A stretch of 64,000 nucleotides of DNA from a virus. Of the stretch, positions 6,593-64,000 are shown in pieces (within the stretch, counting starts at the first letter, position 1; each line of letters opens with the position of its first letter). Location of the stretch: the IMG/VR virus record IMGVR_UViG_3300028559_002342, positions 1-64,000 of that record. One strand, given 5' to 3'. The position numbers and the translations under genes are program-made. The notes beneath the pieces are model-generated. The model did not search any database. It was given only the letters and a program-made list of their open reading frames with translations, and was not told where the DNA came from.

Positions 6593-7662
6593 GTGCTTTG
6601 TGTTCTTTTGTACAGGTCAATGCAATACCGAGAGATGTCAGCTTTTTTATCCACATCTAGCAGTGTAACGAACTCTTCTATTGCTTTGATAGTATCCACC
6701 CCAGAGAGATCATAGGATTGGTCTTCGTTCACAGTGATAGTGTCATTATACACGGTGTAATCAACTGACAGATTGAATGGCTTGTAGGTTGAAATCTTTT
6801 GTATTAGAATATCAATGTTATCACTTGTTACCTTTTTATCGATGACCAGTTTAACAATATTGTTATTAACTGTGTCTTTTACTTCAGTAGCACTCAAGGA
6901 TTTTAAATTGGCTATGTCAGTAAGGGAGAGCTTGATATGTTTTGGTGAAAGAAGATTTTCATAAAATTTGTAGCTCAGATCTTCAAAGTCGAGAATAAAA
7001 TACCCTTTGGTTGAACCTGTGTCACCAAAATCCATTTCAAAGGGATTACCAACATACACTATTGTCTTGTTGTTGTATTTTCTTTCGTCTCTGAGGTGAA
7101 AATGACCTGTCATGATGAGATTGGCTTTGGCAAGCAAGTCTTTTGTCTTTATGCCATGATCACATGCCTTGTGACTGTTCATTTTAAATGTTTCAATTTC
7201 CAGATGACCAAACAACACATCACTCTCTGGTACTGCTTTGATGTCTGCACCCCATGGTAAAAACGTGCATTCTTTGCCCAGTATTGTGTGTGTTTCAATC
7301 TCACTTATGACAGTAATATTCTTCCATCCATTTAAAATGGAAAGAGAATTGATATCAGCTCTGTCTTTGTAGAACGCATCATGATTACCTACCAGAATTA
7401 CTATATTAAAATCAGACCATAGATTTAAAATTTGATTGACCACATGTATGGTATTGACTGCAATTTCATCTCTGTAGTGATACAGATCACCCAGAATAAA
7501 GATGTCCTTGATATTTTTTTTAGTCAACTCATCTTTCAGCCATGAAGCCCATTGAAGAGCTGTTTCATGCCAAAAGATACTGTTTTGATGCACGCCAATG
7601 TGCAAATCGGCAATGCAGCAAACTTTGGAATTGCTGATTGTTAGTTCTTTTTTAGTCTTCAC
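6589..7662 (-). CDS. 47: Recombination endonuclease nuclease subunit (T4 gp47, Mre11/SbcD-like)
   Basis: Metallophosphoesterase-fold nuclease partner of gp46. The two-metal motifs are all present: ADLHIG near residue 18, GDLYHYRD near 58, VGNHDAF near 92 and the late GHFHLRD near 196. The length of 357 residues matches T4 gp47 (339). It overlaps gene 46 downstream and gene 55 upstream by 4 bp each (ATGA-type junctions), giving a tightly coupled 55-47-46 unit. It is expected to be catalytically active, with end-processing controlled by gp46 ATP hydrolysis. Confidence 0.96.
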   Translation of the reverse strand: MKTKKELTISNSKVCCIADLHIGVHQNSIFWHETALQWASWLKDELTKKNIKDIFILGDLYHYRDEIAVNTIHVVNQILNLWSDFNIVILVGNHDAFYKDRADINSLSILNGWKNITVISEIETHTILGKECTFLPWGADIKAVPESDVLFGHLEIETFKMNSHKACDHGIKTKDLLAKANLIMTGHFHLRDERKYNNKTIVYVGNPFEMDFGDTGSTKGYFILDFEDLSYKFYENLLSPKHIKLSLTDIANLKSLSATEVKDTVNNNIVKLVIDKKVTSDNIDILIQKISTYKPFNLSVDYTVYNDTITVNEDQSYDLSGVDTIKAIEEFVTLLDVDKKADISRYCIDLYKRTQST

Positions 7663-8252
7663 TCAGAACTGTTGTAATTGCCGTCTGCCGGTTCAATGTA
7701 TATGTTATACGTATTGCCGTTGTCATCTGGGTTGAGCATTAGCTCAGTGTACACCTTGTCACGATATTCATTGAGCACTGCATGATGTTTATTCTCTTTC
7801 TTGATCCTGTTGATAAAGGCATGAAATGCAATGGTCGTGAAATATGAGAAAGGACTGAACCCTGTGTCAAGCCTGAATTTTTGATTTCTTAGAGCAGAGA
7901 ACATCTTCACAATGGCATCTCCTATCATGTCATCTTTGTAGGAATAATTAATAAAATTAGGTGCATAAGATAACCCGTTGGCAATCTTTGTCAAGCTTTC
8001 ACCTAGCTTCTCTGTAATGTTTCCAGATTTATAATACTGTCTTATTTCATCCTCAAACTCTTTGCCATTTACATAATGCACCTTATCTTTGGCTTTAACC
8101 TTTTTGCGCACAGTTGGTGCAGATTCTGCAGTTGCGACCTTGTTAGGATCTAGGACATTTTCAGTAGAATTACCATCTGATTCTGCCGGTTGCTTCTGTT
8201 TTTTACGTTTCATTGACTTCTTTGATGGAGTATTTAATTTGTTCTTTTTCAT
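7659..8252 (-). CDS. 55: Late-transcription sigma factor (T4 gp55-like)
   Basis: T4 gp55-family sigma factor, which directs host RNA polymerase to phage late promoters of the TATAAATA type. The central and C-terminal region has sigma region-2 character (DDMIGDAIVKMFSALRNQ, then FSPFSYFTTIAFHAFINRI). The N-terminal 60 residues are Lys-rich and look disordered. It has 197 residues, against 185 in T4. The start could be the ATG at 8252 or a second in-frame ATG at 8213, which would cut the overlap with uvsW from 50 to 11 bp. Its presence matches the many ATAAATA boxes seen before structural genes in this window. Confidence 0.9.
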   Translation of the reverse strand: MKKNKLNTPSKKSMKRKKQKQPAESDGNSTENVLDPNKVATAESAPTVRKKVKAKDKVHYVNGKEFEDEIRQYYKSGNITEKLGESLTKIANGLSYAPNFINYSYKDDMIGDAIVKMFSALRNQKFRLDTGFSPFSYFTTIAFHAFINRIKKENKHHAVLNEYRDKVYTELMLNPDDNGNTYNIYIEPADGNYNSSE

Positions 8253-17484: not shown

Positions 17485-18691
17485 TGTGACCATCTCTGAA
17501 TTGACTCCAGGTGCACCTGCTGACAATAACATCATACCCTACAGCACAGGTACTGATACACTGGGTGTGCCTGTGTCTGCCATGTTTCAAAACACATCAG
17601 TTATTAAGACTAACACCCTAGGGGGTCTGAATGGTCTGCAACTGTACACCAACAAGCTGACAAGAAAAAGTTTTTGGTTCATTGAGAAAACAATGGCCAC
17701 AACGGGACCTGGAGCAGGTCCCAATGCAGGTGATTGGACCAGTCTGGGCTACATCACACCCCCAGAATTTGGAACTGGATGGGGGAGAGAAATTAAAATA
17801 TTTGCCACCCATCACATCCCAGATTCTGTTAATTCTGTTACCTATCAGTTACATGATAGTTATAGAACTCGCTCGTTAACATATGCAGATTGGGTGAAGG
17901 TGCCCTCTGTGAGCAATTACAACTATTCCGCAAAACAGGATTTCAGTCTGGAAGCAAGAAGAACCAGAACAACAAATAGTTATTCTAATTTAGAATTGAG
18001 ATACAGGGCCATAGACCCTTCAGCTGCAGCTAGCACCTATGGTGGGAATGTGGCTTTTGCCATAGAAATTCTTGGAGGAGGTGAATTTTTCGAGACCACA
18101 GGTGGTGGCAATGATTTGACAGTGCCAGCAGGTTACCTGGGCAACACTTTTTATCAATTTCCCTTGAGAACATATGCTGATGACACGCATACATCATTTG
18201 AACCATCTACCAGGGGGTTGTTCATGGTGCAACCAGGCCGAGTGGGCATCAACACCATTGCCCCTGCAGCAACATTGGATGTGAATGGTGTCATAACAAC
18301 CAACACAGCACTGTTGTTTGACCGTACAGAAAAAACAGCCAATATAATGTCTGCAGGTGGCCCAGCTGGCGCATCAGGCATTGCAAATTTTAATGTGCTG
18401 GTCCAGCCCGGTGTTTGGACAACGATTGCAACAACATCATGGGGTGGGCAGGTGCAGGCAGCATTTGTTACAGAACCTAACACCACATACAATTTGCAAG
18501 GATTTCATATTGTGCCATGCTCTTATGGTGCAAGCAACAATGCACGCCTACCATCTTATACTGATAGCTTTGTGAATGCAGGTGGGTGGACACAATACAA
18601 CATTCAATGGAGATCCACTGGGTACAATTTGCAGGTCTATCACACTGGACCTGTGCCAATTAGATTCTGGGGAACGTTTAGCGGGGTATAG
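17477..18691 (+). CDS. Tail or appendage protein with MADxxI N-terminal module
   Basis: A 404-residue virion appendage protein. The N-terminus (MADVTISELTPGAP, then IIPYSTGTDTLGVPVSAMF) is the module shared with 11391 and 20293. The central part is beta-rich and contains a typical fibre segment, GRVGINTIAPAATLDVNGV, near residues 253-271. The C-terminal region is Trp/Tyr/Ser-rich (WTQYNIQWRSTGYNL), suited to glycan binding. It begins inside the protease-like gene, so it is translationally coupled to it. It is convergent with folE. It probably forms part of a tail fibre or head decoration. Confidence 0.75.
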   Translation: MADVTISELTPGAPADNNIIPYSTGTDTLGVPVSAMFQNTSVIKTNTLGGLNGLQLYTNKLTRKSFWFIEKTMATTGPGAGPNAGDWTSLGYITPPEFGTGWGREIKIFATHHIPDSVNSVTYQLHDSYRTRSLTYADWVKVPSVSNYNYSAKQDFSLEARRTRTTNSYSNLELRYRAIDPSAAASTYGGNVAFAIEILGGGEFFETTGGGNDLTVPAGYLGNTFYQFPLRTYADDTHTSFEPSTRGLFMVQPGRVGINTIAPAATLDVNGVITTNTALLFDRTEKTANIMSAGGPAGASGIANFNVLVQPGVWTTIATTSWGGQVQAAFVTEPNTTYNLQGFHIVPCSYGASNNARLPSYTDSFVNAGGWTQYNIQWRSTGYNLQVYHTGPVPIRFWGTFSGV

Positions 18692-20292: not shown

Positions 20293-21114
20293 ATGGCAGA
20301 CGTAACAATTAATAATTTAACTTATAGCTTACCTTCTAGTAGCGCTTTTATTCCTTTTACAGATAACGGTGTAACGTTTAAAGTTTCACCTTCCGGGTTA
20401 TATGCTAAGCCTGGTAATACCTTATTAGTAGGCGGTGAATCATTAGCAGATCTACTTCCTACAACAAATACAAGTTTATTAGCCTTATCTACCGATAGCG
20501 GAATCATAAGAGGTGGGTGGCTTTTGTGTATTACAGAAAGAAATACTTCGTGGGGTGATTCTGCTGCAAGAATAGGGGTTTTAAGAAGTGGTGCAGGAAA
20601 CGGATGGTGGTTATCACATAATTTAGATGGATCAGGAGCTATTCATCAAAGTACACAAGGCGATCGTTTGTTAATTACTTCAGAAGGTTATGTAAAAACA
20701 CCTTATCAACCAGGATTTAAAGCCACAATTACAACACAATCACAATCCACCGGTCAGACGGTATTATGGGATACTGTAGAATACGCCATACCTGCAGGGT
20801 CATTTAATACTAGCACCGGTGAATGGACGGTACCTCAAACAGGTAGATACCTAATAATAGTTAATTTACTTTCACAAAGAAATACAACTGGTGGTGATTG
20901 GTATGTTGATCTCTACGTAAATAGCGGGCAACCATATGGTGGAAGAATGTATACTAGTAAAGCTGGTAATTCTAGTGTACATGCACAGCTAAATGCCAGT
21001 GGTATCTTTTATTTAAATACAGGTGATAAAATAAAAACTGTTCTGACTAGTCAAGTGGGTAACGTTGCCCCTACAATTTTTCACAATCTATTTTGTGCGG
21101 AGTTATTAGGATAA
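20293..21114 (+). CDS. Appendage protein: MADxxI module plus C1q-like C-terminal domain
   Basis: A 273-residue virion protein. The N-terminal module (MADVTINNLTYSLP, then IPFTDNGVTFKVSPSGL) is shared with 11391 and 17477. The C-terminal 130 residues resemble a C1q/TNF-like jelly roll: a segment with WDTVEYAIPAGSFNTSTGEW, then VPQTGRYLIIVNLL, NTGDKIKTVL and a final hydrophobic strand. Such domains form trimers and bind ligands. Codon use is strongly A/T-biased relative to its neighbours, as in 11391, suggesting exchange between phages. No clear late box is seen at the expected distance. Confidence 0.75.
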   Translation: MADVTINNLTYSLPSSSAFIPFTDNGVTFKVSPSGLYAKPGNTLLVGGESLADLLPTTNTSLLALSTDSGIIRGGWLLCITERNTSWGDSAARIGVLRSGAGNGWWLSHNLDGSGAIHQSTQGDRLLITSEGYVKTPYQPGFKATITTQSQSTGQTVLWDTVEYAIPAGSFNTSTGEWTVPQTGRYLIIVNLLSQRNTTGGDWYVDLYVNSGQPYGGRMYTSKAGNSSVHAQLNASGIFYLNTGDKIKTVLTSQVGNVAPTIFHNLFCAELLG

Positions 21115-36907: not shown

Positions 36908-38539
36908 GTGTTCAGTAGATACGTTCAGCACTTTCCTAAAGAATATAATCCCAGTGATCACCAAGTAAAACTCATCAAAGGGGTGGAGAAGGCGTTCAAT
37001 AGTGGCAAGAAGTTCGTTATATGTTGTGCGCCAACAGGCACAGGAAAGAGTTTCTTGGCCAAAACGCTTTCAGGGCTAAGCTCCAATCCAACTGAAAAGT
37101 TTGTCAATTTTGTAAAAAGCTATGCAGCCTACAGGCAGGATTTCACTGGCAACTATATCAATGAAGTTGACTGTATCTCTCAGCCACCGTTTGGTACTTT
37201 TGCTCTCACAATAACCAAATCTTTGCAAGATCAATATTTGAAACTGTTTCCAGATACTGATGTCCTCAAAGGTAAAACCAATTATCTTTGTGATATAGAC
37301 AATAATTATGATGTTGAAACAGCTCCTTGTGTGCTGGTTCCAAAGATCAAAGAAGATTGTTGGGAACAAAATCGTTGCCCCTATTATAACAAACGCAATG
37401 ATGCAGTTTTATCTAAGTTTGCTGTTTTAAACTACAAGATGTTTCTCTCGCTACCAAATCATATCAAAAGAAAAAATTTTATTATTTGTGATGAAGCCTC
37501 AGAGCTTGAAGATGAGCTTGTAAAACAATTTTCTGCAGAAATAAACTATGATAGACTTCGTGCATATGGTCTTGAGGTGCCAACTCTTTTAACTGAGAAT
37601 CGTGAAAAAACGCGCTCATGGCTTTGTGATCTTGTATTTTCAATAAGCGAGCAGATCAATCAACTTATCAACAAGGCAAATAAAAAGCAGAGAACATTTT
37701 CCCAGCCAGAAAAGATAAGAGTGCAATATCTTAAGAATATTCACAGTGCTCTTACAACTGTTGATACATTGTGGTGTGAGTGTGAATATGTCATTGATCG
37801 AGATTCTAAGAAAGTATTATTCACCCCACTCAAAGTCTGCAAGCTTACCAAATATATTTTCGATTGTGCAGATAATGTCTTATTAATGTCGGCAACCATC
37901 ATTGATCATAAAAACTTTGCAAAAACATTAGGCATTACAGATTATGAGTATGTGGAAGTGGAGAGCGGATTTGATCCACAAAAATCACCAATTTATGTGT
38001 CATCACAAAACAAGTTAAATTATAAAAACTTACATCACATGCTTCCTGGCATATGTGATCAAATCAGTGCCATTGTTGAACATCATAAAACTGAAAAGGG
38101 TATCATCCATACCCATTCCATGGAAATAACCAAAATGATCAATCAAAGATTGTCTGCAAATAAGCGGTTTTTATTCAGAGATGAATTGGCTAATAATGGG
38201 AGCATTTTAAAAGAGCATTATGAGACAGATTTACCTACTGTACTTGTGTCGCCATCACTGGCTTTTGGTGTGGATCTGAAAGATCATCTGGCGCGCTTTC
38301 AAATCATAGTGAAGCTGCCTTTTCCACCACTATCATCAAAATATGTTAAACAATTGTTTGATGTAGATAAGAATTGGTATGAAAACAAGATGTTAAATGC
38401 TTTGGTACAGGCATGCGGCAGAGCCACTAGAAGCAAGGATGATTTTTCCACAACCTACATATTGGATGGAAATGCTGTTAATGTGTTGAAGCGAGCAAAA
38501 ACAAAGCTACCTAAGTCCTTTATTGATCGTATTAATTAA
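36908..38539 (+). CDS. XPD/DinG-like Fe-S helicase
   Basis: A 543-residue superfamily 2 helicase. Motif I is CCAPTGTGKSFLAK near residues 37-50 and motif II is FIICDEASEL near 192-201. A four-Cys cluster lies between them: YLC near 124, APC near 138, EDC and NRC with PYYN near 148-156, as in the Fe-S domain of XPD/DinG. The C-terminal part has LMSATI, SPSLAFGVDLKDHLA and QACGRATRS (motif VI). It probably unwinds 5'-3'. The start is a GTG. It is clustered with replication accessory genes. Confidence 0.85.
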   Translation: MFSRYVQHFPKEYNPSDHQVKLIKGVEKAFNSGKKFVICCAPTGTGKSFLAKTLSGLSSNPTEKFVNFVKSYAAYRQDFTGNYINEVDCISQPPFGTFALTITKSLQDQYLKLFPDTDVLKGKTNYLCDIDNNYDVETAPCVLVPKIKEDCWEQNRCPYYNKRNDAVLSKFAVLNYKMFLSLPNHIKRKNFIICDEASELEDELVKQFSAEINYDRLRAYGLEVPTLLTENREKTRSWLCDLVFSISEQINQLINKANKKQRTFSQPEKIRVQYLKNIHSALTTVDTLWCECEYVIDRDSKKVLFTPLKVCKLTKYIFDCADNVLLMSATIIDHKNFAKTLGITDYEYVEVESGFDPQKSPIYVSSQNKLNYKNLHHMLPGICDQISAIVEHHKTEKGIIHTHSMEITKMINQRLSANKRFLFRDELANNGSILKEHYETDLPTVLVSPSLAFGVDLKDHLARFQIIVKLPFPPLSSKYVKQLFDVDKNWYENKMLNALVQACGRATRSKDDFSTTYILDGNAVNVLKRAKTKLPKSFIDRIN

Positions 38540-38545
38540 TAAATA
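38539..38545 (+). promoter_or_regulatory. Late promoter box ATAAATA
   Basis: The box overlaps the helicase stop and ends exactly 5 nt before the GTG start of gene 15. Confidence 0.65.
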
Positions 38546-38550
38546 ATATC

Positions 38551-39360
38551 GTGAAGAACGAAACGTTTCATTTTGAAATCAAAGATCTACTGACTCAGTT
38601 TGTAGCTGCTTTTGATGACATCATCATCAAGCGCTTTGATAGAAACAGAACACCTCAACAAAGAGTGCAAGTCAGATATGTATATGCACCCAAAGAGCGT
38701 GTAATATATGATTTAGTAAACAAGGCTCAAAATCTAACTGTGCCAGTCATATCCATCAACATCAACAGTATCAGCAGAGATGAAGCACGAGTGTTCAACA
38801 AGCTGGCCGGGTTTTACACATCTCGTGGGGTCAGTGAAACAGATACCAGACTAATATCTCAATTTTATCGAACACCTGTGCCAGTGAACATACAGATCAA
38901 CATGTCCATTTTAACAAAATTTCAATCTGATTTGGACCAGATCATATCCAATTTCATACCTTACAGCAACCCCTACATTATTCTGTCATGGAAAGTGCCA
39001 ACAGATTTAATAGGTGGCACTGTGCCTCAAGAGATACGAAGTGAAGTGTTGTGGGATGGAGGGCTTACATTAAACTACCCAACAGATTTAGCAGCAAATG
39101 AAAAATATAAGATTTCAGGTGATACAGCGTTTACCATCAAAGGATGGCTATTTCCATATGCATCCAATCCATCCTCCAACATTTACAACATCAACACGAA
39201 TTTCTATGTATCCAGAATCATCACTGATTTTGAGGCACTATCGAGCAATAGCTACACATACCCATTGAGCTCCAATCTAGTTAATGAAAGAGAGAGTTTC
39301 ACTGTGATGAGCGCACCGGACTTGACAAATGTGGAATACGTTAACATAGAATACTTGTAA
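38551..39360 (+). CDS. 15: Tail sheath stabiliser / completion protein (T4 gp15-like)
   Basis: A 269-residue protein matching T4 gp15 (272 residues), the hexameric ring that caps the tail and joins it to the head. FDDIIIKRFDRNRTPQQRVQ near residues 18-37, YVYAPKERVIYDL, and PVPVNIQINMSILTKFQSDL, then NFIPYSNPYIILSWK near 132-146, line up with the T4 protein (IQIKRQ, ITYASKEHFM, FTRYEDDMFQIVEQILPYF). The C-terminal region is Ser/Tyr/Asn-rich. The start is GTG, fixed by the late box. It precedes the portal gene. Confidence 0.8.
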   Translation: MKNETFHFEIKDLLTQFVAAFDDIIIKRFDRNRTPQQRVQVRYVYAPKERVIYDLVNKAQNLTVPVISININSISRDEARVFNKLAGFYTSRGVSETDTRLISQFYRTPVPVNIQINMSILTKFQSDLDQIISNFIPYSNPYIILSWKVPTDLIGGTVPQEIRSEVLWDGGLTLNYPTDLAANEKYKISGDTAFTIKGWLFPYASNPSSNIYNINTNFYVSRIITDFEALSSNSYTYPLSSNLVNERESFTVMSAPDLTNVEYVNIEYL

Positions 39361-41212: not shown

Positions 41213-41219
41213 ATAAATA
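41213..41219 (+). promoter_or_regulatory. Late promoter box ATAAATA
   Basis: The box ends 6 nt before the ATG at 41226, with a predicted 1-nt leader. Confidence 0.6.
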
Positions 41220-41225
41220 ATACAT

Positions 41226-42302
41226 ATGGAATGTACAGAGATAACACCGATCACGGCTTTTCAAAGTACCAATCTATCAAGCAGAATAGACACCTTCACT
41301 AGATTGGGCGATAGAATAGTGAGATCCATGGGTGCGCCTCTCATAAATCTCGAAATACATCATGATCAACTGTTTGAAAACATCTCCATTGCTTGTGAGA
41401 TGTTCACTAAATTTGCTGGATACACAGAAGAAATATTAATATTTGATTCCAATTTGTACATAGATAATGTAGGCATTAGATTGGATGAGCTTTTCACCAT
41501 CACACCGTATTTTAATAAATTAGTTAAACCACCTTCTGTAGCTTATGTGGCCAACACGACTATGCCTGCCAGTACATTTTCAATTTCCAATACACTTTCT
41601 GCTGAATACAAGGATGGTATTTTTCAGAATCAAATTTTAACACAAACAAAATATCTGAGTGTAATTAATTTTGAAGGCACTCTGGCACAAAACTTCACTC
41701 CCACCGGTGCCGGTGAACAAAAGTATGTCAATAGTTTTGACTATGATATCATGGAATACAGAAAAGTCATGGACATAATAGATTTTGAAGAAGGTAGCAG
41801 CACTGGTGTCAACACACTCTTCACAATTGAACAAACCCTTGCACAACAAACATATTTTAGCTATGCAATGGGTAATTATGGGTTTGATTTAATCAGTTGG
41901 TATGTGCTTAAGAATTGGCTTAAAGACAGAGAAAAGCTTCTGGCGACCAGAAGATATCTTCAATTCGATGAGCGTACACAATACCTCACAATGTTCCCGC
42001 CTCCGCGCACCCCGGGTTCAGGCTCCAGATTTTTTGGTGTGGTGAATTGTTATGTGGAACGCAGACTCAAGGATATCATCAAAGAGCCTTGGGTTTATCA
42101 ATATGCATTGGCTTTGTCCAAGATCTCTGTTGGCAATGTGAGAGGAAAATACACTGGCACCACCATGTTTGGTGGCGGTCAAATTAATTACAATGATTTG
42201 CTAAGCCAAGGTTTGCGAGAAAAGGAAGAATTAGAAAAGAGGCTTTATGAAGGAACCCCTGGGTTTGGTGATGCAGCACCACCCTCCTTCTTTGTTGGCT
42301 AA
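41226..42302 (+). CDS. 13: Neck protein (T4 gp13-like head completion)
   Basis: A 358-residue protein resembling gp13, part of the neck ring under the portal. The best match is IVRSMGAPLINLEIHHDQLF near residues 32-51, followed by NISIACEMFTKFAGYTEEIL, which lines up with [20 protein letters not shown] of T4 gp13 (309 residues). The middle has a helical QTYFSYAMGNYGFDLISWYV segment. A C-terminal GGQINYNDLLSQGLREKEEL is typical of the end of this protein. It overlaps gene 4 by 1 bp. Confidence 0.75.
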   Translation: MECTEITPITAFQSTNLSSRIDTFTRLGDRIVRSMGAPLINLEIHHDQLFENISIACEMFTKFAGYTEEILIFDSNLYIDNVGIRLDELFTITPYFNKLVKPPSVAYVANTTMPASTFSISNTLSAEYKDGIFQNQILTQTKYLSVINFEGTLAQNFTPTGAGEQKYVNSFDYDIMEYRKVMDIIDFEEGSSTGVNTLFTIEQTLAQQTYFSYAMGNYGFDLISWYVLKNWLKDREKLLATRRYLQFDERTQYLTMFPPPRTPGSGSRFFGVVNCYVERRLKDIIKEPWVYQYALALSKISVGNVRGKYTGTTMFGGGQINYNDLLSQGLREKEELEKRLYEGTPGFGDAAPPSFFVG

Positions 42303-42782: not shown

Positions 42783-42789
42783 ATAAATA
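42783..42789 (+). promoter_or_regulatory. Late promoter box ATAAATA for gene 21
   Basis: The box ends exactly 5 nt before the ATG at 42795, so the predicted transcript begins at the start codon. Confidence 0.65.
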
Positions 42790-42794
42790 ATTGT

Positions 42795-43466
42795 ATGTCC
42801 CTACGCCTATTAGTAGAAGCACCTGCTCCTGATGAGCAATTTGAATACATTCTAGAGGAAAAGAATCCTAAAGAACCGGCACGCTTGCACATTCAGGGAC
42901 CTTACATGATATGCAATGAGGTGAATCGCAATCAAAGAATTTATGAAAAATCCGACATGGAGAGAGAAGTTAACAGATACATCAAGGAGATGGTCAATAC
43001 AAATCGCGCCATGGGTGAACTTAACCATCCTGCTTCTGCAGAAGTGAATCTGGAGAGAGCTTGTCACGTGGTGACAAACCTCCGGTTGGAAGGCAATGTT
43101 GTCATAGGCAAATCACAAGTGCTTAGCACACCCATGGGTCAGATTGTGCGCTCTCTAATCAATGATGGTGTAAAAGTTGGCATGTCAAGCCGCGCTCTGG
43201 GCAAGCTCAATGAAGAATCAGGTGGCGTGAATCGTGTCACTGACATGCGCTTGGTGGCTGTTGACTGTGTTGCAGATCCCTCGTGCCCCAAAGCATTTGT
43301 GAATGGAATCCTGGAAAGCAAACAATTTGTTGTGGCTGCAAATGGTGAACTGGAAGAAATATATAATAAATTTGAAAACAGTTTGCGGAATTTGCCAAGA
43401 AAAGACATGCAGGTGTATCTGAAGGAACAGCTGATCACCTTCTTTAAATTCCTAAAGACTGCATAA
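42795..43466 (+). CDS. 21: Prohead core protease (T4 gp21-like)
   Basis: Serine protease that matures the prohead by cutting core proteins, capsid protein and internal proteins after hydrophobic-x-Glu. At 223 residues it is close to T4 gp21 (212). MGELNHPASAEVNL near residues 72-85 carries the catalytic His and VGMSSRALGK near 126-135 the catalytic Ser. Its own N-terminus, MSLRLLVE before APAP, looks like an auto-cleavage site. Its expected substrates in this phage may include the 13 proteins with CTS-like starts described here. Confidence 0.93.
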   Translation: MSLRLLVEAPAPDEQFEYILEEKNPKEPARLHIQGPYMICNEVNRNQRIYEKSDMEREVNRYIKEMVNTNRAMGELNHPASAEVNLERACHVVTNLRLEGNVVIGKSQVLSTPMGQIVRSLINDGVKVGMSSRALGKLNEESGGVNRVTDMRLVAVDCVADPSCPKAFVNGILESKQFVVAANGELEEIYNKFENSLRNLPRKDMQVYLKEQLITFFKFLKTA

Positions 43467-57851: not shown

Positions 57852-58439
57852 TTATTTGTTTTTATCGTTGCTGTAGTTAGTTAGTGCTGATTTAATAAAT
57901 TTTTTTGTTGTTGTATTTTGTATATTTTTATTGCTCAAAACATAAATAGAAAAATATCCATACGATTGAAAGCCACTTTCAGTATTGAGAACCTTTGAAT
58001 AAAGATCATCCATGTTTATTTTTGAATCAGTCAAATTGTTCAAATATTCACCATTGATTGGATAGATGCCCCGGTTTAAAAAAGCATAACAATCATCACA
58101 CTTCAGGTTGTATTTGGTCAGAAGGTTATCATAAAAATTCTTAGTTAACTTGATGCTATGGTCTGTGCCCAGGTCATCCAATTGCTTCAACAGGGGTAAG
58201 TATTTATTTTTAAATGCAATCCTTATGCCTTTAAAAAATTTAGGCTCCAACGGCTCATTGGGAACAAAATGAATGACACTAATTGGATTGAAGTTTTTAT
58301 TTATGACCAGTCTTTTTTGATCATACAGATTTTTAATCTGAAATCCCAGCATGCACAAGGGGTAATCTGTATCAGAGAGATAAGAGAACTCTTCTACATC
58401 GAGCGGTTGCTCACAGAGATTCACATCTAATAATGCCAT
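57852..58439 (-). CDS. Hypothetical protein
   Basis: A 195-residue protein of unknown function. It has Lys/Asn-rich regions (KLTKNFYDNLLTKYNLKCDD near residues 98-117, a lone C-D-D-C) and a variable C-terminus. No motif or membrane segment. It is isolated between nrdA and a membrane protein gene on the same strand, 43 and 39 bp away. Confidence 0.65.
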   Translation of the reverse strand: MALLDVNLCEQPLDVEEFSYLSDTDYPLCMLGFQIKNLYDQKRLVINKNFNPISVIHFVPNEPLEPKFFKGIRIAFKNKYLPLLKQLDDLGTDHSIKLTKNFYDNLLTKYNLKCDDCYAFLNRGIYPINGEYLNNLTDSKINMDDLYSKVLNTESGFQSYGYFSIYVLSNKNIQNTTTKKFIKSALTNYSNDKNK

Positions 58440-58478
58440 AGGCGTATTATATGAACAAATATTTGTAGATCAACACTA

Positions 58479-58889
58479 TTAATGAACTCGCTTCAAAAAA
58501 TCTGTGATTAGAACCACCAAAAACGATGTTATGGAAGCAAGTACTGCTGTGGTCAGAGCAATTCTAAAATTCCACATGTTAGTTGACTCTGATCTTTTGC
58601 GACCAAATTCACTTGTTATTTGCACTGTAATGCTGTTGAATTTTTCTGTTACCACATCTGTAATATTTTTAAACTTGAGCTCTATCTCTCTCTCCAATCC
58701 ATCGATCTTCTCATCCACATGCTGCAAGCATGTTTCCACATGTTCTGAGTGCGCTTTAAGTTTGCCAGTGAGCTCTGATAATTGTGTTGTAATTGCTGGT
58801 TTGCCGTTGCCCTGAAAAACAACCTTGTAAACCTCTTTTACCTCATCCTGAAGCTTTTTTACATTTAATATGGGGCTGTTTTTCTTCAT
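58479..58889 (-). CDS. Coiled-coil membrane protein, holin-like candidate
   Basis: A 136-residue protein. An N-terminal helical region (LQDEVKEVYKVVFQGNGK), a coiled-coil centre (KIDGLEREIELKFKN) and one C-terminal transmembrane segment (ALTTAVLASITSFLVVLITD near residues 111-130) followed by a basic end (FLKRVH). The layout recalls hemolysin XhlA or T4-type holins and tail-associated membrane proteins. It is near a lysozyme and a 3D-domain gene, so a lysis role is plausible, not shown. Confidence 0.55.
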   Translation of the reverse strand: MKKNSPILNVKKLQDEVKEVYKVVFQGNGKPAITTQLSELTGKLKAHSEHVETCLQHVDEKIDGLEREIELKFKNITDVVTEKFNSITVQITSEFGRKRSESTNMWNFRIALTTAVLASITSFLVVLITDFLKRVH

Positions 58890-58890
58890 A

Positions 58891-59124
58891 TTACTTGATT
58901 TGAAATGAGTAAGACAATATGCCTTTGGGCAGGCTGTACACTTTGCCTCTCACATTGCCATTGGCTTCCTTGGTGACAATTGTCATTCTGTCTTGTGTAA
59001 CTATGGGGCCATTGATGATCTCTGCAGTGCCCAGATTGAGACTGTAGGTCTTGATGCCCTTCATGACATCAAATACATTTATTGTATTTTTACCTGCAAG
59101 TACTGCAGAATATAACTTGTTCAC
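58891..59124 (-). CDS. Small beta-rich hypothetical protein
   Basis: A 77-residue protein, beta-strand-rich (TYSLNLGTAEIINGPIVTQD, residues 26-45), ending SLPKGILSYSFQIK. It looks like a small beta-barrel or a propeller blade with no identified family. It is 1 bp upstream of the holin-like gene, so the two are probably co-transcribed. Confidence 0.6.
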   Translation of the reverse strand: MNKLYSAVLAGKNTINVFDVMKGIKTYSLNLGTAEIINGPIVTQDRMTIVTKEANGNVRGKVYSLPKGILSYSFQIK

Positions 59125-59159
59125 AATAAGTACTTATTGTTGTTAAATCACTAATTTTA

Positions 59160-59166
59160 ATAAATA
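59160..59166 (+). promoter_or_regulatory. Late promoter box ATAAATA
   Basis: The box stands 8 nt before the ATG at 59175; predicted leader 3 nt. Confidence 0.6.
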
Positions 59167-59174
59167 TATAAAAT

Positions 59175-60641
59175 ATGGCCGACATAGTATCAAAAATCTT
59201 AGTCCGACAAGGAACAGATGTTCAAAGAAGAACAGCTAATTCTGGTGGTATCATATTCAGTTCTGGTGAGCCTGCATACTGCACAGATACAAGGAGATTG
59301 TTTATTGGTGACGGGACTACTAAAGGCGGCACTGTAGTGGGCAGCAGAAACTTGGGCATAGTCAGTGCATTATTTGGATCATCGACAAACGGGTTCACTA
59401 GTGAAGCTATTGCACTGTTCAATGCACAGGGTGCATCAGTTGGTGACTTTTTGTATGACAAAGCCACAAGAAACATATATTCACTTTCTGCTGTGACAGC
59501 TTTTCCTCCTCTATCCACCAATCTGGCAAAGTATGATTCTGTGGTTGTCATCAACACAGATCAATTCCAATTGATCAACAACTCAGTATTGACAATAAAG
59601 AGTGGTGGTGTAAGAAAGGAACAGCTGTTTTTTGATGTGGTTGATGGTGTATCACTAGAAAAAACAGCATTCAATCAGCCCATCCGCATCAAGACAGGCG
59701 GGGTGCAAAATTATCATTTTTCCAACCCCCCTGCTTTCACTGTGAAGGGTAATAGCCAGAGTACTGATGCAGCATTGAATGACATCTTTGTATATGAGAA
59801 TCATTTGGTAGGTAGGACATCACTATCAACTTTAACATCCATTCCATTCTCCACAGTGGTGGGTGGTGGCTTGAACAGTGACAATGGTGTAGATATTAAT
59901 GGCAATTCTGTTTCTCTGGATTTAACCTATTTTAGAATTACTCCTGACCCGATCAGAAGACTTACTTTTGTTTCTGCTACTTCTGCTCACAGTGATTTCA
60001 GTATAAATGGCACTACAACTACAAAAGCAATTACCATCAATGGCAACACAACCATGAACACTGGTGCTCTTGTGAACAATGGTACAACAAATCTCATTGG
60101 TGCTGCAAATGCAGGAGTGCTTCGAGTCAACACAAATCTGGTTGTGTCAACAATTTTAGCGGACAACATGGTCACCATAAAAGCACCTGCACGCGTGGAG
60201 GGCAACCTTGAGGTGAATAGCACATCCACAAACTCAATCACTGGCAACATTAATGTGACAGGAGGCATAAGTACCACTGCAAACAGCAGTGTCGGTGGCA
60301 CACTCACTGTGACAGGAGATGTTGTAGCATTCTATACTTCCTCAGATCTCAGATTAAAAGAAGATTTGAATGTATTGCAAGACCCTCTGGATAAAATCGG
60401 CAGTCTTGTTGGATACGAATTCACATTCAACTCCAATTCTCCTGCACATTTAAAAGGCAAGAAAAATTATGGGCTCATTGCACAAGATGTGGAGCGAGTG
60501 CTGCCTCTGTCTGTTGAACACAGAGCAGATGGCTATATGGGTGTAAATTATGAATCTGTCATACCATTGCTTGTGGAGTCTATCAAGGCACTGCAAACCA
60601 AAGTGAATAATCTACAGGATGAAATACGAAAAACTAGTTAA
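59175..60641 (+). CDS. Tail fibre with Mtd-like N-terminus and S74 chaperone domain
   Basis: A 488-residue tail fibre. The N-terminus (ILVRQGTDVQRRTANSGGII, then GEPAYCTDTRRLFIGDGT) is like the N-terminal domain of major tropism determinant proteins. The shaft is beta-rich with repeated Asn/Thr/Gly (VNSTSTNSITGNINVTGGIS). The C-terminal 100 residues form an intramolecular chaperone of the Peptidase_S74 type: SSDLRLKEDLN near residue 391, LIAQDVERVLP near 435, MGVNYESVIPLLVESIKAL and a coiled end. The catalytic Ser-Lys pair is in the SDLRLK region, so self-cleavage is expected. It is followed by an overlapping small gene. Confidence 0.9.
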   Translation: MADIVSKILVRQGTDVQRRTANSGGIIFSSGEPAYCTDTRRLFIGDGTTKGGTVVGSRNLGIVSALFGSSTNGFTSEAIALFNAQGASVGDFLYDKATRNIYSLSAVTAFPPLSTNLAKYDSVVVINTDQFQLINNSVLTIKSGGVRKEQLFFDVVDGVSLEKTAFNQPIRIKTGGVQNYHFSNPPAFTVKGNSQSTDAALNDIFVYENHLVGRTSLSTLTSIPFSTVVGGGLNSDNGVDINGNSVSLDLTYFRITPDPIRRLTFVSATSAHSDFSINGTTTTKAITINGNTTMNTGALVNNGTTNLIGAANAGVLRVNTNLVVSTILADNMVTIKAPARVEGNLEVNSTSTNSITGNINVTGGISTTANSSVGGTLTVTGDVVAFYTSSDLRLKEDLNVLQDPLDKIGSLVGYEFTFNSNSPAHLKGKKNYGLIAQDVERVLPLSVEHRADGYMGVNYESVIPLLVESIKALQTKVNNLQDEIRKTS

Positions 60642-60810
60642 GTCTTTACTGGAAGATTTTAATGTATTTCCTGGCACTCAGACAGCTGTAAATTCAGGAC
60701 CAGACATGGGAATGACATCTGGTGATATACAGAACACATTTCCAAGTAAAATGAGCACAGTAAAAATTAAATTACCAAAAAAGAAGATTAAGAAGTCAAA
60801 AAAAGATTAA
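60619..60810 (+). CDS. Small basic CTS-like protein
   Basis: A 63-residue protein that starts within the 3' end of the fibre gene. MKYEKLVKSLLE before DF has the shape of a capsid-targeting peptide. The C-terminus is very basic (KLPKKKIKKSKKD), so it could bind DNA in the head. It overlaps the lysozyme gene tail to tail by 23 bp. Confidence 0.65.
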   Translation: MKYEKLVKSLLEDFNVFPGTQTAVNSGPDMGMTSGDIQNTFPSKMSTVKIKLPKKKIKKSKKD

Positions 60811-61360
60811 TTACACTCTTCACACGCTTGCCCACCTGGGTTGCCCATTTGCTGTTTTGCAATTCTTTTGCTGCAGCTTTATAATCTTTGGCAAGGATAA
60901 AATCTTTTGTTTTAATAAATTTGCTTAATCTGGCATATCCCATGTTGAAAGAAAGATCCAGCACTGCCAGCTTCATGTTCTTGGGCAGCGAATCAAAATT
61001 GGGCAACCATTGCTTTGCATCTTTGTATGCAATGTTAATTGTAATTTTAAATATCTCTCTTATCTGGTCGTCTGTGAGGTCAATGACACCTGCCTTGGCA
61101 TCATTATAATTAACACCCACCTGCTGCAGAATATTCTTTGCATCAGGTCTCATCAAGTTCAATCCAATGCCTATGGTGGGTATGCCCAAACTATCTTTGT
61201 ACACATGTGGCTTATAGCCTTCATGTTCTTTGACAAAATTGAAGATGTCGTCAAAAGTGAGCTTGGTATCTGTTGCCCTTTGCATTATGGCAGGTGGTGG
61301 CAGTGGAGGTGCATCTGCAACTGCTTCCATGAGTTCTTCAACAAGCTTATTAAATTTCAC
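60788..61360 (-). CDS. Phage lysozyme (GH24, T4 lysozyme-like) with CTS-like N-terminus
   Basis: A 190-residue muramidase that would cut peptidoglycan. The catalytic Glu is in FNFVKEHEGYKPHVYKDSLG near residues 40-59 and GIPTIGIGLNL follows, the typical T4-lysozyme signature. LAVLDLSFNMG near 131 is the conserved helix. The preceding 35 residues are MKFNKLVEELME before AVADAPPLPPP, a capsid-targeting-like peptide plus a Pro-rich linker. This suggests that the enzyme is packaged or virion-associated instead of, or as well as, acting at lysis. The start is GTG, at exactly the late-promoter distance. Confidence 0.9.
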   Translation of the reverse strand: MKFNKLVEELMEAVADAPPLPPPAIMQRATDTKLTFDDIFNFVKEHEGYKPHVYKDSLGIPTIGIGLNLMRPDAKNILQQVGVNYNDAKAGVIDLTDDQIREIFKITINIAYKDAKQWLPNFDSLPKNMKLAVLDLSFNMGYARLSKFIKTKDFILAKDYKAAAKELQNSKWATQVGKRVKSVINLFLTS

Positions 61361-61365
61361 CTAAT

Positions 61366-61372
61366 TATTTAA
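61366..61372 (-). promoter_or_regulatory. Late promoter box TTAAATA (minus) for the lysozyme
   Basis: TTAAATA ends exactly 5 nt before the GTG start at 61360, so a leaderless GTG message is predicted. Confidence 0.6.
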
Positions 61373-61929
61373 TTTAAAACAGCCACCTTTACAATTTTAG
61401 GATTATTATTTGCAAAGATCAATGCATCTCTTTTGTTGGTAAAAAACACATCAATCACAGGTAGCTTGCCACAGGATGCTGTCCTCTGTTTAACTGCAGT
61501 ACCTGTGTCAACAGCCCTGACCAAGCCTATGTTGGGTATGATCACATCTGACTTGTAAGGTATGATTCTGGGGTCTACGGCTATGGAATCACCTTGTTTG
61601 AGAGTATAACCAGTGGAGCTCCTGAGTCTGCTACTGTCACTGTCAGTGTCTCCACCTTTGGCCCAATACACTGTGAGACGCACAGTCAGTACTCTGTAGT
61701 TGTTTGTTTTAGGAATCAAATTGTCCATGTACTGTATACCATCATTCTTGATGGTAATATTTTTTGCCACTTCTTTCTCTCTGCTAAATGTCAACCCGTT
61801 AAGATCTTTCTTCAGTTCGTTCAATCCAATCCTAGTCTTCTCTTTGAATGATGTGATGCTAATGGGGGTAGCTATGAAAAGCACCATCAACATTAATATT
61901 AGCTTGTTTGTTTTTGTTTTTGTTATCAT
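61369..61929 (-). CDS. 3D-domain cell-wall protein with N-terminal hydrophobic segment
   Basis: A 186-residue protein from the ATG at 61929. TKTNKLILMLMVLFIATPIS at residues 4-23 is a signal peptide or membrane anchor. The C-terminal half is a 3D domain, as in MltA and YabE-type proteins: SIAVDPRIIPYKSDVIIP near residues 115-132, LVRAVDTGTAVK, then PVIDVFF (three aspartates). Such domains occur in lytic transglycosylases. The region contains a late-type box at 61980-61986, giving a leader of about 45 nt. It lies next to the lysozyme gene, so a role in lysis or spanin-like action is likely. Confidence 0.7.
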   Translation of the reverse strand: MITKTKTNKLILMLMVLFIATPISITSFKEKTRIGLNELKKDLNGLTFSREKEVAKNITIKNDGIQYMDNLIPKTNNYRVLTVRLTVYWAKGGDTDSDSSRLRSSTGYTLKQGDSIAVDPRIIPYKSDVIIPNIGLVRAVDTGTAVKQRTASCGKLPVIDVFFTNKRDALIFANNNPKIVKVAVLN

Positions 61930-61978
61930 AAAAAGTGCCAAATATGGCAGAGCATTTAACCGGTAACTTAAATGTTTA

Positions 61979-62437
61979 TTATTTATCCAGTTTAACTGAT
62001 TCCCAGGGAAAGTCAAGCCAGATGTTATCATCAAAACGTTTTATGTAAAAATTTGGAACATAACTTGTGGACTCTTTTATGTACAATGTGGCAAATTTGT
62101 AATGTGTAAATTGTTGCAATTCAAAGAAACTATTTAGCTCCATTATAGTTTTGCCTTTATCGGACAAGTCATCAATTATAATGACTCTTTTGTCACGGTA
62201 TTTTGTGACAAATTTAATGCCCAGTGTTTGATCAAACGCTATCTCTCCTGGCACATTGTCATCTGTGTAGCTTCTTATGCCAAAATTATATATGGGCACA
62301 TTTAATATGTGTGAAATGATCACACTGGGCACCAGTCCACCTCGACCTGCAGAAACAATGACATCACAGGAATCTATTTTATCTGCCAACAATTTGCAAT
62401 CCCGGGTGATGTCTTGCCAGGCCAATGTGGTTCGCAT
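61979..62437 (-). CDS. gpt: Xanthine/guanine phosphoribosyltransferase-like (Gpt)
   Basis: A 152-residue PRTase of the bacterial Gpt type, converting guanine or xanthine to the nucleotide with PRPP. VIVSAGRGGLVPSVIISHIL near residues 27-46, the PRPP loop RVIIIDDLSDKGKT near 88-101, and NIWLDFPWE near the end match the pattern of E. coli Gpt. The ATG at 62437 is chosen over a TTG one codon upstream. Together with guaC and dpdA it suggests recycling of guanine released from DNA. The downstream gene is the 3D-domain protein. Confidence 0.8.
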   Translation of the reverse strand: MRTTLAWQDITRDCKLLADKIDSCDVIVSAGRGGLVPSVIISHILNVPIYNFGIRSYTDDNVPGEIAFDQTLGIKFVTKYRDKRVIIIDDLSDKGKTIMELNSFFELQQFTHYKFATLYIKESTSYVPNFYIKRFDDNIWLDFPWESVKLDK

Positions 62438-62449
62438 CAAACGATTGTA

Positions 62450-62725
62450 TTATAGTTTATCAATAATGCTAGTTACATCTTCAAGTGTTTTCTTCAAAGA
62501 TGGTGCAATAAAAAGATAGTCTTCCTTTAATCCTCTGGCAGCCTTGTTGGCAAGATTGGATAAATCAGTAGAAATCTTCTTCTGCATGGAACTGACTTCT
62601 TCATTCTCACTTCTGGCTTGGGGATATTCCTTGGGTGCATACAAATATGAGTCAGTGTTGCGCTCAGTGTTGTTGATGCCCAGGCTTGCATAGGACTCTA
62701 TTATAGCTTTTGTATCTCTGTTCAC
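62450..62725 (-). CDS. Putative head-internal protein, CTS-like N-terminus
   Basis: A 91-residue protein. MNRDTKAIIE before SYAS is CTS-like with an I-I-E/S site. The rest is helical with Ser/Glu-rich segments (SSMQKKISTDLSNLANKAAR). Unknown function. The start is GTG and lies exactly at the predicted transcription start of the bidirectional promoter shared with the zinc-ribbon gene. Confidence 0.7.
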   Translation of the reverse strand: MNRDTKAIIESYASLGINNTERNTDSYLYAPKEYPQARSENEEVSSMQKKISTDLSNLANKAARGLKEDYLFIAPSLKKTLEDVTSIIDKL

Positions 62726-62737
62726 TTAAATATTTAT
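62726..62737. promoter_or_regulatory. 12-bp bidirectional late promoter
   Basis: TTAAATATTTAT separates two divergent GTG start codons. Read on the plus strand, TTAAATA plus 5 nt reaches the GTG at 62738. Read on the minus strand, CATAAATA plus 5 nt reaches the GTG at 62725. The last base of the minus-strand box is inside the plus-strand start codon. Both messages would be leaderless. Confidence 0.65.
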
Positions 62738-62962
62738 GTGAGTGGCAATGAAAAAAAGCTTAAAGCTGCTCAATTAATAATTAAACACGCTGATCTGTAC
62801 AAAATATGTGAATGTTGTGAGTCCATAATTTTATTTTCAGACATATTCTGTCCACTTTGCGAGGGTTACAGATTCAATGACAGTCTGCAAGACATAGAAA
62901 AGTTGGCTCTTGTGTTGGCAAAAAAAGATAAAACAGACATCCTACCTCGCAACGTTATCTAG
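62738..62962 (+). CDS. Small zinc-ribbon protein
   Basis: A 74-residue protein with two CxxC pairs: ICECCESIILFSDIFCPLCE near residues 23-42, so a zinc ribbon is likely. The start is GTG. It may be a regulator or a nucleic-acid-binding adaptor. Similar small zinc-ribbon proteins occur in T4-like marine phages, from memory. It overlaps the gene at 62942 tail to tail by 21 bp. Confidence 0.75.
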   Translation: MSGNEKKLKAAQLIIKHADLYKICECCESIILFSDIFCPLCEGYRFNDSLQDIEKLALVLAKKDKTDILPRNVI

Positions 62963-63103
62963 AGGCATGCATTGATTCAAATATTTGGAAAGCAGAATAA
63001 CTTTTTTCATTATTTCTTCTTTTCTGTATGGCTTCTTCTCTTTCTTGGCTTGCATGTACAGGTCAAGAATTTGATCGGCAGTAATTTTCTTTCCACTTGT
63101 CAT
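62942..63103 (-). CDS. Small basic hypothetical protein
   Basis: A 53-residue helical and basic protein (TADQILDLYMQAKKEKKPYR, residues 8-27). The ATG at 63103 is set by an ATAAGTA box exactly 5 nt upstream, although a longer frame to 63166 exists. Function unknown. Confidence 0.6.
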   Translation of the reverse strand: MTSGKKITADQILDLYMQAKKEKKPYRKEEIMKKVILLSKYLNQCMPLDNVAR

Positions 63104-63108
63104 GTTAA

Positions 63109-63115
63109 TACTTAT
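63109..63115 (-). promoter_or_regulatory. Late promoter box ATAAGTA (minus)
   Basis: Variant box with exact 5-nt spacing before the ATG at 63103. Confidence 0.5.
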
Positions 63116-63147
63116 TTTATTAGTAGTTGCTTTTCTTGCATGCCTCA

Positions 63148-63154
63148 ATAAAAA
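63148..63154 (+). promoter_or_regulatory. Late promoter box variant ATAAAAA
   Basis: ATAAAAA ends exactly 5 nt before the ATG at 63160 and so supports that start for the H1-like gene. Confidence 0.45.
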
Positions 63155-63159
63155 TATGT

Positions 63160-63352
63160 ATGTCAAACATCAATCCACTCACCCTTCAAGAACATGTTGC
63201 AACCTTTACTGCCGAATACGAGAAGTTTTGGCGGTAATAATGCTGCAGGAACACGCACACGCAAAGCACTTCAGGAAGTGATTAAATTTGCCCGTGAAGC
63301 CCGCAAGAGTGTTCAAGAAGAAAAAAATAATCGCAAAGCTGCTAAGAAATAA
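63160..63352 (+). pseudogene. Histone H1/Hc1-like protein gene with a frameshift
   Basis: Two overlapping frames make one Hc1-like (PF07432) protein. Frame one (63160-63237) reads MSNINPLTLQEHVATFTAEY then EKFWR and stops. Frame two (63224-63352) continues FGGNNAAGTRTRKALQEV, IKFAREARKSVQEE and a Lys-rich end. Family members read KFY-x-K-GN-AAGTR-x-RK, so the break lies at the TTTTGG near 63226-63231. One base too many in the T-run, or another indel, would explain it; programmed frameshifting is another option. If repaired, the product is about 60 residues, basic and DNA-binding. The start is set by the late box. Confidence 0.65.
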
Positions 63353-63357
63353 TTCTC

Positions 63358-63681
63358 TTATTGCTTTAATCCCAGCTGTCGCTTCCGTTCATTTCTGTGA
63401 ACGGAGGTGATAGTTTGGATCACTTCTGATGCACGTGTGAATGAGTCGACTGTCTTGTAGATGGCATCAACAATTTCGTAGGCAGCATGTATGGCCTTGC
63501 GTTCACTGTTGATATCTTCCAAGGAAATCTTCTGTTCTTTCTTTTCCTTGTGTTCTTCATTTTCAGTTGCAGGTGGTCTTGTGGGTGCAGTGTTCAATGG
63601 TTTGGATTGTGTTACAACAGGCACTGCAGGCACACCTGGGCTGGTGTATGCTTCAAATATGAGATGACAATCATTGTTCAC
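63358..63681 (-). CDS. Putative head-internal protein, CTS-like N-terminus
   Basis: A 107-residue protein. MNNDCHLIFE before AYTSP is a CTS-like peptide with an I-F-E/A site. A Pro/Thr/Glu-rich linker follows (APTRPPATENEEHKEKKEQK), then a helical C-terminus (IHAAYEIVDAIYKTVDSFTR). The start is GTG, with a CATAAATA box 6 nt upstream. Function unknown. Confidence 0.7.
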   Translation of the reverse strand: MNNDCHLIFEAYTSPGVPAVPVVTQSKPLNTAPTRPPATENEEHKEKKEQKISLEDINSERKAIHAAYEIVDAIYKTVDSFTRASEVIQTITSVHRNERKRQLGLKQ

Positions 63682-63856
63682 TGTTAGTATTTATGTTATC
63701 TAATGAATAAATACCATATATGGCAGACGTGGCAATATCTGAATTACACACTTGGATGCTGTAGCCTGGTCTTACTTTAACTTCATGTTCTGGTGTTAGG
63801 CTGTTAATTATATCACTTGCGAGATCTGCCAGCATCTGCGCGTTGCTTGCGAGCAT
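63671..63856 (-). CDS. Doubtful small ORF
   Basis: A 61-codon frame (SNAQMLADLASDIINSLTPE, residues 4-23, looks helical and plausible). Its last third is antisense to the MADVAISEL remnant and it overlaps the start of the gene at 63681, so the natural 3' end may have been lost. No box is seen at the usual distance. It could be a genuine short gene cut by recombination, or chance. Confidence 0.35.
   Translation of the reverse strand: MLASNAQMLADLASDIINSLTPEHEVKVRPGYSIQVCNSDIATSAIYGIYSLDNINTNSEQ
63688..63694 (-). promoter_or_regulatory. Late promoter box ATAAATA (minus)
   Basis: Minus-strand CATAAATA with 6 nt to the GTG start at 63681; predicted 1-nt leader. It faces the box at 63707-63713 on the other strand. 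Confidence 0.55.
63707..63713 (+). promoter_or_regulatory. Late promoter box ATAAATA in front of a remnant gene
   Basis: The box lies 6 nt before the ATG of the 14-codon MADVAISEL remnant, so a complete late promoter and start module have survived without the gene body. Confidence 0.5.
63720..63764 (+). pseudogene. Remnant of a MADxxI appendage gene
   Basis: A 14-codon frame reads MADVAISELHTWML and stops. The first nine residues equal the shared N-terminal module of the appendage proteins at 11391, 17477 and 20293. The rest does not continue the module. It looks like the 5' end of a fourth paralogue cut off by recombination near 63747. Confidence 0.65.
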
Positions 63857-63897
63857 TTACAAACTGTAGCGCTCATGCATACCATTGTAGCATGTGG

Positions 63898-64000
63898 TTA
63901 TTTGTTATCAAATGCTTTCTGCACAAACAATGCACTCTGACGCTCCAACACCTTCTGCACATATTGACATTGCGATTGGCCTCCTAATTTATCAATTATG
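63898..64000 (-). CDS. C-terminal end of an unknown protein (partial)
   Basis: The window ends inside a minus-strand gene whose last 33 codons read IIDKLGGQSQCQYVQKVLER and QSALFVQKAFDNK. It is helical and charged. Identity cannot be told from this part. It lies 41 bp upstream of the doubtful small ORF. Confidence 0.55.
   Translation of the reverse strand, partial: IIDKLGGQSQCQYVQKVLERQSALFVQKAFDNK

Follow-up and report, generated by a model that had tools for sequence, protein, structure and literature searches.

A 12-bp near-palindromic core as a probable two-way late promoter of two predicted leaderless genes in a T4-like virus

According to published descriptions, the box of T4 late promoters lies at positions -13 to -6 (PMC1524935; PMC2988020), and in relatives of T4 it varies at -13, with a C at -12 in phage Aeh1 (PMC1524935). 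Late boxes of the form NATAAATA are known from cyanophages (PMC2984593), and late-promoter prediction in pelagimyophages, the group of HTVC008M, was described as unsuccessful (PMC7029224). A distance of 7-25 bp between RNA starts on opposite strands has served to delimit bidirectional promoters (PMC10268837), and at those of E. coli opposing polymerases are described as excluding each other sterically, with basal activity too low for competition (PMC12825309). In the accessible part of the open-access literature, we found no gp55 promoter described as two-way or leaderless.

The window analysed here, a stretch of 64,000 nucleotides, comprised positions 1-64000 of a 66,674-base virus record (IMGVR_UViG_3300028559_002342). 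Its genome was T4-like, with genes for gp23, DNA polymerase, two SbcC/SbcD-like (46/47-type) endonuclease subunits and UvsY, together with portal, prohead protease and tail sheath stabiliser. The capsid protein was 32-33% identical to the 15 matches listed of 2493, and those 15 were all from cyanophages. As in T4-type late transcription, the genome encoded a gp55-like late sigma factor (7659..8252, minus strand; phrog_234), the presumed reader of the boxes, with an E value of 1.1e-28 at 7641-8096(-) in the contig search and of 3.4e-26 with the ORF 7659-8252. The sliding clamp profile PF02916 gave no match on the window fragment and is too narrow, as only T4 of 14 records matched and both Syn9 and HTVC008M were missed.

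Two GTG codons facing away from each other flanked a 12-bp near-palindromic core, TTAAATATTTAT (62726..62737, no strand), the sequence from 62723 to 62740 being CAC TTAAATATTTAT GTG, where CAC (62723-62725) is the minus-strand GTG and 62738-62740 the plus-strand one. The order was TTAAATA, TTTAT, GTG on the plus strand and ATAAATA, TTTAA, GTG on the minus strand. The late box of the minus gene, CATAAATA (62731..62738, minus strand), would span -13 to -6 with +1 at 62725 and differed from TATAAATA by one mismatch, at -13. That of the plus gene, CTTAAATA (62725..62732, plus strand), would span the same positions with +1 at 62738 and was weaker, with two mismatches, at -13 and -12. Both strands therefore carried an 8-bp box of the T4 late type at -13 to -6, the plus box matching less well; its T at -12 occurred in 3 of the 15 window boxes situated 4-6 nt from a start, CTTAAATA included. 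The two 8-mers overlapped by 2 bp, and the outermost base of each was the complement of the first start-codon base of the other gene. In T4 numbering, the predicted +1 fell on the G of each GTG, with 13 bp between the two predicted starts, compared to the common 18, 10 and 23 bp given for bidirectional promoters in PMC12825309. Upstream of the first conserved residues of either gene, the sequence and the alignments contained no other in-frame ATG, GTG or TTG. The initial annotation had described the two divergent GTG codons around TTAAATATTTAT with a late box and 5 nt on each strand, which is exact, and had also proposed overlapping boxes with transcription starts about 13 bp apart and a single element serving two leaderless late genes, both of which agree with the sequence.

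Considering this geometry, the genome-wide box-to-start spacing, the conservation of the core, its recurrence between other gene pairs and the presence of gp55, all read from the sequence, the 12-bp core is probably a late promoter for gp55 that is symmetric in sequence, shared by the two genes and the source of two leaderless mRNAs. We infer the start sites, leaderless translation, mutual exclusion and bias, and, by comparison with T4, activation by the sliding clamp. On the near-palindrome, where a TATAAATA-like box of one strand interlocks with that of the other, the host RNA polymerase with gp55 would read either box, open the AT-rich centre and start RNA about 6 nt further on, at the G of the corresponding GTG. 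Each mRNA would thus begin with its start codon, the first base of the GTG being +1, and would be translated leaderless, ribosomes loading on the 5' start codon. Polymerase would occupy one orientation at a time, so that the two genes would share initiation events; on steric grounds, mutual exclusion of the two directions is likely, and late promoters activated by the clamp may have the strength needed for competition.

The element combines two known kinds, the T4 late promoter and the bidirectional promoter. It resembles T4 late promoters (gp55, gp33, gp45 clamp) by its TATAAATA-like boxes, AT-rich start region, association with structural genes in the genome and encoded gp55, and differs from them by the interlocking, within 14 bp, of a box on each strand. 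With the symmetric -10 bidirectional promoters of Warman, Grainger and colleagues it shares a single symmetric element, close opposite starts and an expected exclusion, and carries the box 5 nt from the predicted start in both orientations; unlike them, it would depend on a phage late sigma rather than sigma-70, recurs as an exact palindrome, and has predicted starts that coincide with the start codons. If this reading is correct, the element is close to the smallest possible two-way promoter, as 18 bp would hold a start codon, a box and a transcription start for each direction.

Single late boxes at comparable distances were located upstream of late, structural genes in the window, as expected for T4-type late promoters. 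ATAAATA was followed by 5 nt and GTG at the tail sheath stabiliser gene (box to start 38539..38553, plus strand; gene 38551-39360), by 5 nt and ATG at the head maturation protease gene (42783..42797, plus strand; gene 42795-43466), and by 6 nt and ATG at the head-tail adaptor gene (41213..41228, plus strand; gene 41226-42302). Among the 29 ATAAATA sites of the window, 9 lay exactly 5 nt upstream of an ORF start (ORFs of at least 60 aa), compared to at most 2 at 5 nt for each of 20 permuted 7-mers; one of these, TAAATAA, which overlaps the extended box, gave 11 at 4-6 nt. The box-to-start spacing in the window is beyond chance.

The spacing was also counted across genomes, for ORFs of at least 80 aa with their first start within 40 nt of ATAAATA. 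It was 5 nt in 8 of 19 cases in the window (6 nt in 3), 8 of 22 in G002, the contig of the related locus L004 (6 nt in 4), 9 of 18 in Pelagibacter phage HTVC008M and 6 of 20 in G014, while G005 had 9 of 30 at 4-5 nt. In the same count, the boxes of T4, Syn9 and P-SSM2 lay mostly 13-39 nt from starts, those closer than 10 nt representing 0/29 in T4, 1/20 in Syn9 (at 4 nt) and 1/30 in P-SSM2 (at 8 nt). A looser NTAAATA search in P-SSM2 with another gene set gave scattered short spacings, one of them at 5 nt, and no peak. These longer spacings rule out a general T4-like or cyanophage feature. A transcriptome of Syn9 was reportedly obtained by Doron et al. in 2016. At 5-6 nt from the start codon, the window boxes would produce leaderless mRNAs, unlike those of T4. 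The short distances in the window, G002 and HTVC008M are possibly a lineage trait, and point to a neglected one, namely that late genes of some aquatic T4-like phages, the cultured HTVC008M included, would be leaderless.

HTVC008M also had TAAATA boxes exactly 5 nt before annotated starts: in two annotated stretches, all 9 boxes at 5 nt corresponded to annotated starts, and the whole genome contained 12 such boxes. It differed from the window in that Shine-Dalgarno cores were common (69/151 genes vs 7 in the control stretch; T4, 93/172 vs 14). No Shine-Dalgarno signal above control was detected in the window (7/69 genes vs 6) or in G002 (5/84 vs 6), which points to a translation mode of the host or phage that would not need one. 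Both this lack of signal and the box geometry are compatible with leaderless genes. In the window, G002, G014 and HTVC008M, other divergent pairs, with gaps of 24-54 bp, also had a box with at most 1 mismatch 3-9 nt from each of their two starts, and no such pair was found in Syn9, T4 or P-SSM2; the 12-bp gap is the interlocked extreme among such pairs. In HTVC008M, divergent genes for the DNA end protector and head completion (18916(-)/18943(+)) each had a box at 5 nt; unlike in the window, they were 26 bp apart and the boxes were separate.

The gene pair was also found on two near-identical contigs (L002, L003) and on three more distant ones (L004, L005, L008). TAAATATTTAT was identical (11/11) in the window, L004, L005 and L008, whereas third codon positions agreed only at 25-40 of 74-91; as judged from the alignments, the core is conserved against a diverged background in the window's clade. 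A search with the plus-protein alignment (at least 599 candidate stretches) retrieved at least 19 relatives, of which three repeated L002, L005 and L008. Fourteen of the other 16 possessed the minus gene head-to-head, two (L265, L276) did not, and gp23 was present on 13 of these 16 contigs. The pair was head-to-head, with a gap of 11-18 bp, in at least 18 loci, tabulated as the window, L004, L005, L008 and the 14 from the search, with the near-identical L002 and L003 left out. The minus 7-mer matched ATAAATA perfectly in 10/18 loci and with one mismatch in 8/18, and in every case lay 5-6 nt from the start. Of the plus 7-mers situated 4-9 nt from the start, the best had one mismatch in five loci (window, L004 and L264 at 5 nt; L005 and L008 at 8 nt, where the plus gene starts 3 nt further down), two in eight and three in five. 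The plus box of L004, L008 and L264 was CTAAATA, with the C at -12 of Aeh1, for whose late promoters the available text of PMC1524935 mentions no two-way leaderless arrangement. A plus box was accepted in 8/18 loci, namely those five and L263, L270 and L272 (TTAAGTA at 5 nt, gap 12); other two-mismatch boxes were not accepted because two mismatches mean little in such AT-rich DNA, which left 10/18 loci without an accepted plus box. The minus box was the better one in 18/18. In L266, L267, L269, L271, L274, L275 and L277, the plus gene had no clear late box and was accompanied by TATACT or TATATT; it is possible that the late promoter was swapped for a host-type one in these seven relatives.

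This asymmetry of the boxes within the family keeps alive a one-way alternative, in which the late box drives the minus gene only, the plus box is an AT-rich by-product, and the plus gene is served by antisense read-through or by a sigma-70 promoter of the host located within the minus gene. It would account for a minus box with 0-1 mismatch at all 18 loci next to a plus box accepted at eight, and for the TATACT/TATATT of the seven relatives, which by eye resembles a sigma-70 -10 element upstream of the plus gene. We nevertheless consider it unlikely, as the core is symmetric and conserved in the window's clade, and as no plus-strand sigma-70-like site was found nearby: 650 bp contained one such site, on the minus strand, with 1.6 expected by chance. 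No sigma-70 promoter was found at the element itself. The perfect double boxes between 13 other gene-pair families, described below, also speak against a one-way use.

The ideal form of the shared two-way promoter, CAT-ATAAATATTTAT-ATG, is a perfect dyad with two perfect TATAAATA boxes, since the A of each ATG provides the T at -13 of the opposite box. The exact 18-mer occurred at 53 places in viral contigs and 42 in cellular genomes. ORFs of at least 60 aa started from both ATGs at 31 of the viral places (from one at 14 and from none at 8), but at 0 of the cellular places (one, 5; none, 37; Fisher p = 5e-11), and the difference held after clustering (13/29 vs 0/39; p = 2e-6). Two composition-matched palindromes were found at 4 and 1 places in viral contigs, with both ORFs of at least 60 aa at 0/5 and of at least 40 aa at 2/5; p against these five places alone was 0.018. 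The 31 two-ORF places represented 13 pair families and 26 gene families, between which blastp at E 1e-4 gave no link. A remoter kinship is possible, as 2OG-Fe(II) oxygenase was matched by the minus-side protein of L091 and, just below the cut-off, by that of L050. Other members of the pair families were RuvC-like, HNH, fatty acid desaturase and radical SAM proteins, and many had no family.

Once the element was masked, 7 of 48 ATAAATA sites lay 5 nt from a start in 15 loci covering the 13 families, compared to 1/367 in cellular loci. gp55 or gp23 (over the cut-off) was encoded on 7 of the 31 contigs, all of them partial or of unknown completeness, and of the other 22 contigs with the exact 18-mer 3 carried gp55 and 2 carried gp23, so that the T4-type affiliation is established for a part only. 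Among the matches listed in a scan for degenerate 18-mers, which is a sample, both ORFs reached 60 aa in 1/77 degenerate or GTG variants and 40 aa in 3/77; the single variant at 60 aa was the same gene pair as in the window, and GTG forms like that of the window are thus rare as two-way elements. None of the seven named phages searched contained the pattern CAYNTAAATATTTANRTG. In six viral loci belonging to one family (L012, L022, L023, L055, L111, L112), the exact 18-mer was flanked by a long ORF in one direction and by a 13-codon ORF (MTEIS...) in the other, which may reflect either one-way use or a tiny leaderless peptide.

The spacer TTTAT was found in none of 36 other 5-nt promoters (window, G002, G005, G014 and HTVC008M; tally of the listing), whereas 6 of the 8 arms had it in the four 12-bp elements listed there. 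It is, by its letters, forced by the opposite box and under a dual constraint; other TTTA-spacers at single promoters (one in the window, two in G002) weaken this argument in the window's lineage. The arrangement of boxes and starts recurs in other gene pairs and viruses and is broader than the initial annotation had assumed; the extreme compaction noted there is indeed unusual, though not unique to this locus. 

The annotation had also called the element a natural toggle, a reading that found no support. Two polymerase orientations would then form a switch with memory, the infected cell committing to one gene. The boxes do overlap, and, according to PMC12825309, a bidirectional promoter of E. 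coli cannot be bound by two opposing polymerases at once. Exclusion without feedback has no memory, however, the same source describes no competition at basal levels, and the minus box was better in all 18 loci, which makes a toggle very improbable; it was rejected as unsupported, the unequal boxes arguing against balance. For the shared two-way promoter, the better minus box and the fewer accepted plus boxes would rather predict a bias toward the minus gene than a balanced switch.

It is also possible, but doubtful, that direction is set by the sliding clamp, which would choose because an exact palindrome gives polymerase no directional cue. In that case, the elements would reflect replication polarity, with one gene or the other fired depending on clamp orientation, and phages would several times have placed different genes to either side of such a promoter. 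As T4 late activation depends on clamp orientation, symmetric sites directly test what sets transcription direction and are a natural test of the polymerase's choice.

The perfect dyad of the exact 18-mer would suit an operator, i.e. a palindrome bound by a DNA-binding regulator and not a promoter, but the same box and spacing upstream of single late genes, and the rarity of the two matched palindromes with none between two ORFs of at least 60 aa, leave this reading hardly credible.

The minus gene (62450..62725, minus strand; GTG start) encoded a 91-aa protein with the N-terminus D-x-x-A-I-x-E-S-Y, an NxTER motif and two predicted C-terminal helices, whose structure model (pLDDT 73.5, pTM 0.45) contained two helices and a poorly predicted N-terminal half. 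The plus gene (62738..62962, plus strand; GTG start) encoded a 74-aa four-cysteine protein (YKxCExCxS...CPxCxxYRF), which, based on the alignments, is probably a zinc-ribbon protein; a fold search with its model (pLDDT 84) gave no significant match, the best (E 0.11) being a weak ribosomal-protein resemblance. Family and structure look-ups of both proteins yielded no convincing family match and no function. In annotated phages, no DNA-level relative was detected for window positions 58000-64000, L048:2000-4000 or L025:3200-4500, nor a relative of the plus protein by tblastn. The conserved head-to-head linkage suggests, without proof, a role shared by both proteins.

The proteins encoded at 62450-62725(-) and 63358-63681(-) both started with M-N-x-D-...-I-x-E-[SA]-Y-x-S, and similar short N-termini were present in relatives. 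Internal proteins of T4 carry a head-targeting peptide, and this common N-terminus could be one by analogy. Between these genes, a 52-aa protein (63194-63352(+)) matched histone H1-like Hc1 (PF07432, E 1e-10). Elsewhere in the window, the proteins encoded at 11391-12302(+), 17477-18691(+) and 20293-21114(+) had a common N-terminus, approximately MAD[IV][AT]I..L..G.P.....IP[FY]S, and by eye are apparently paralogues.
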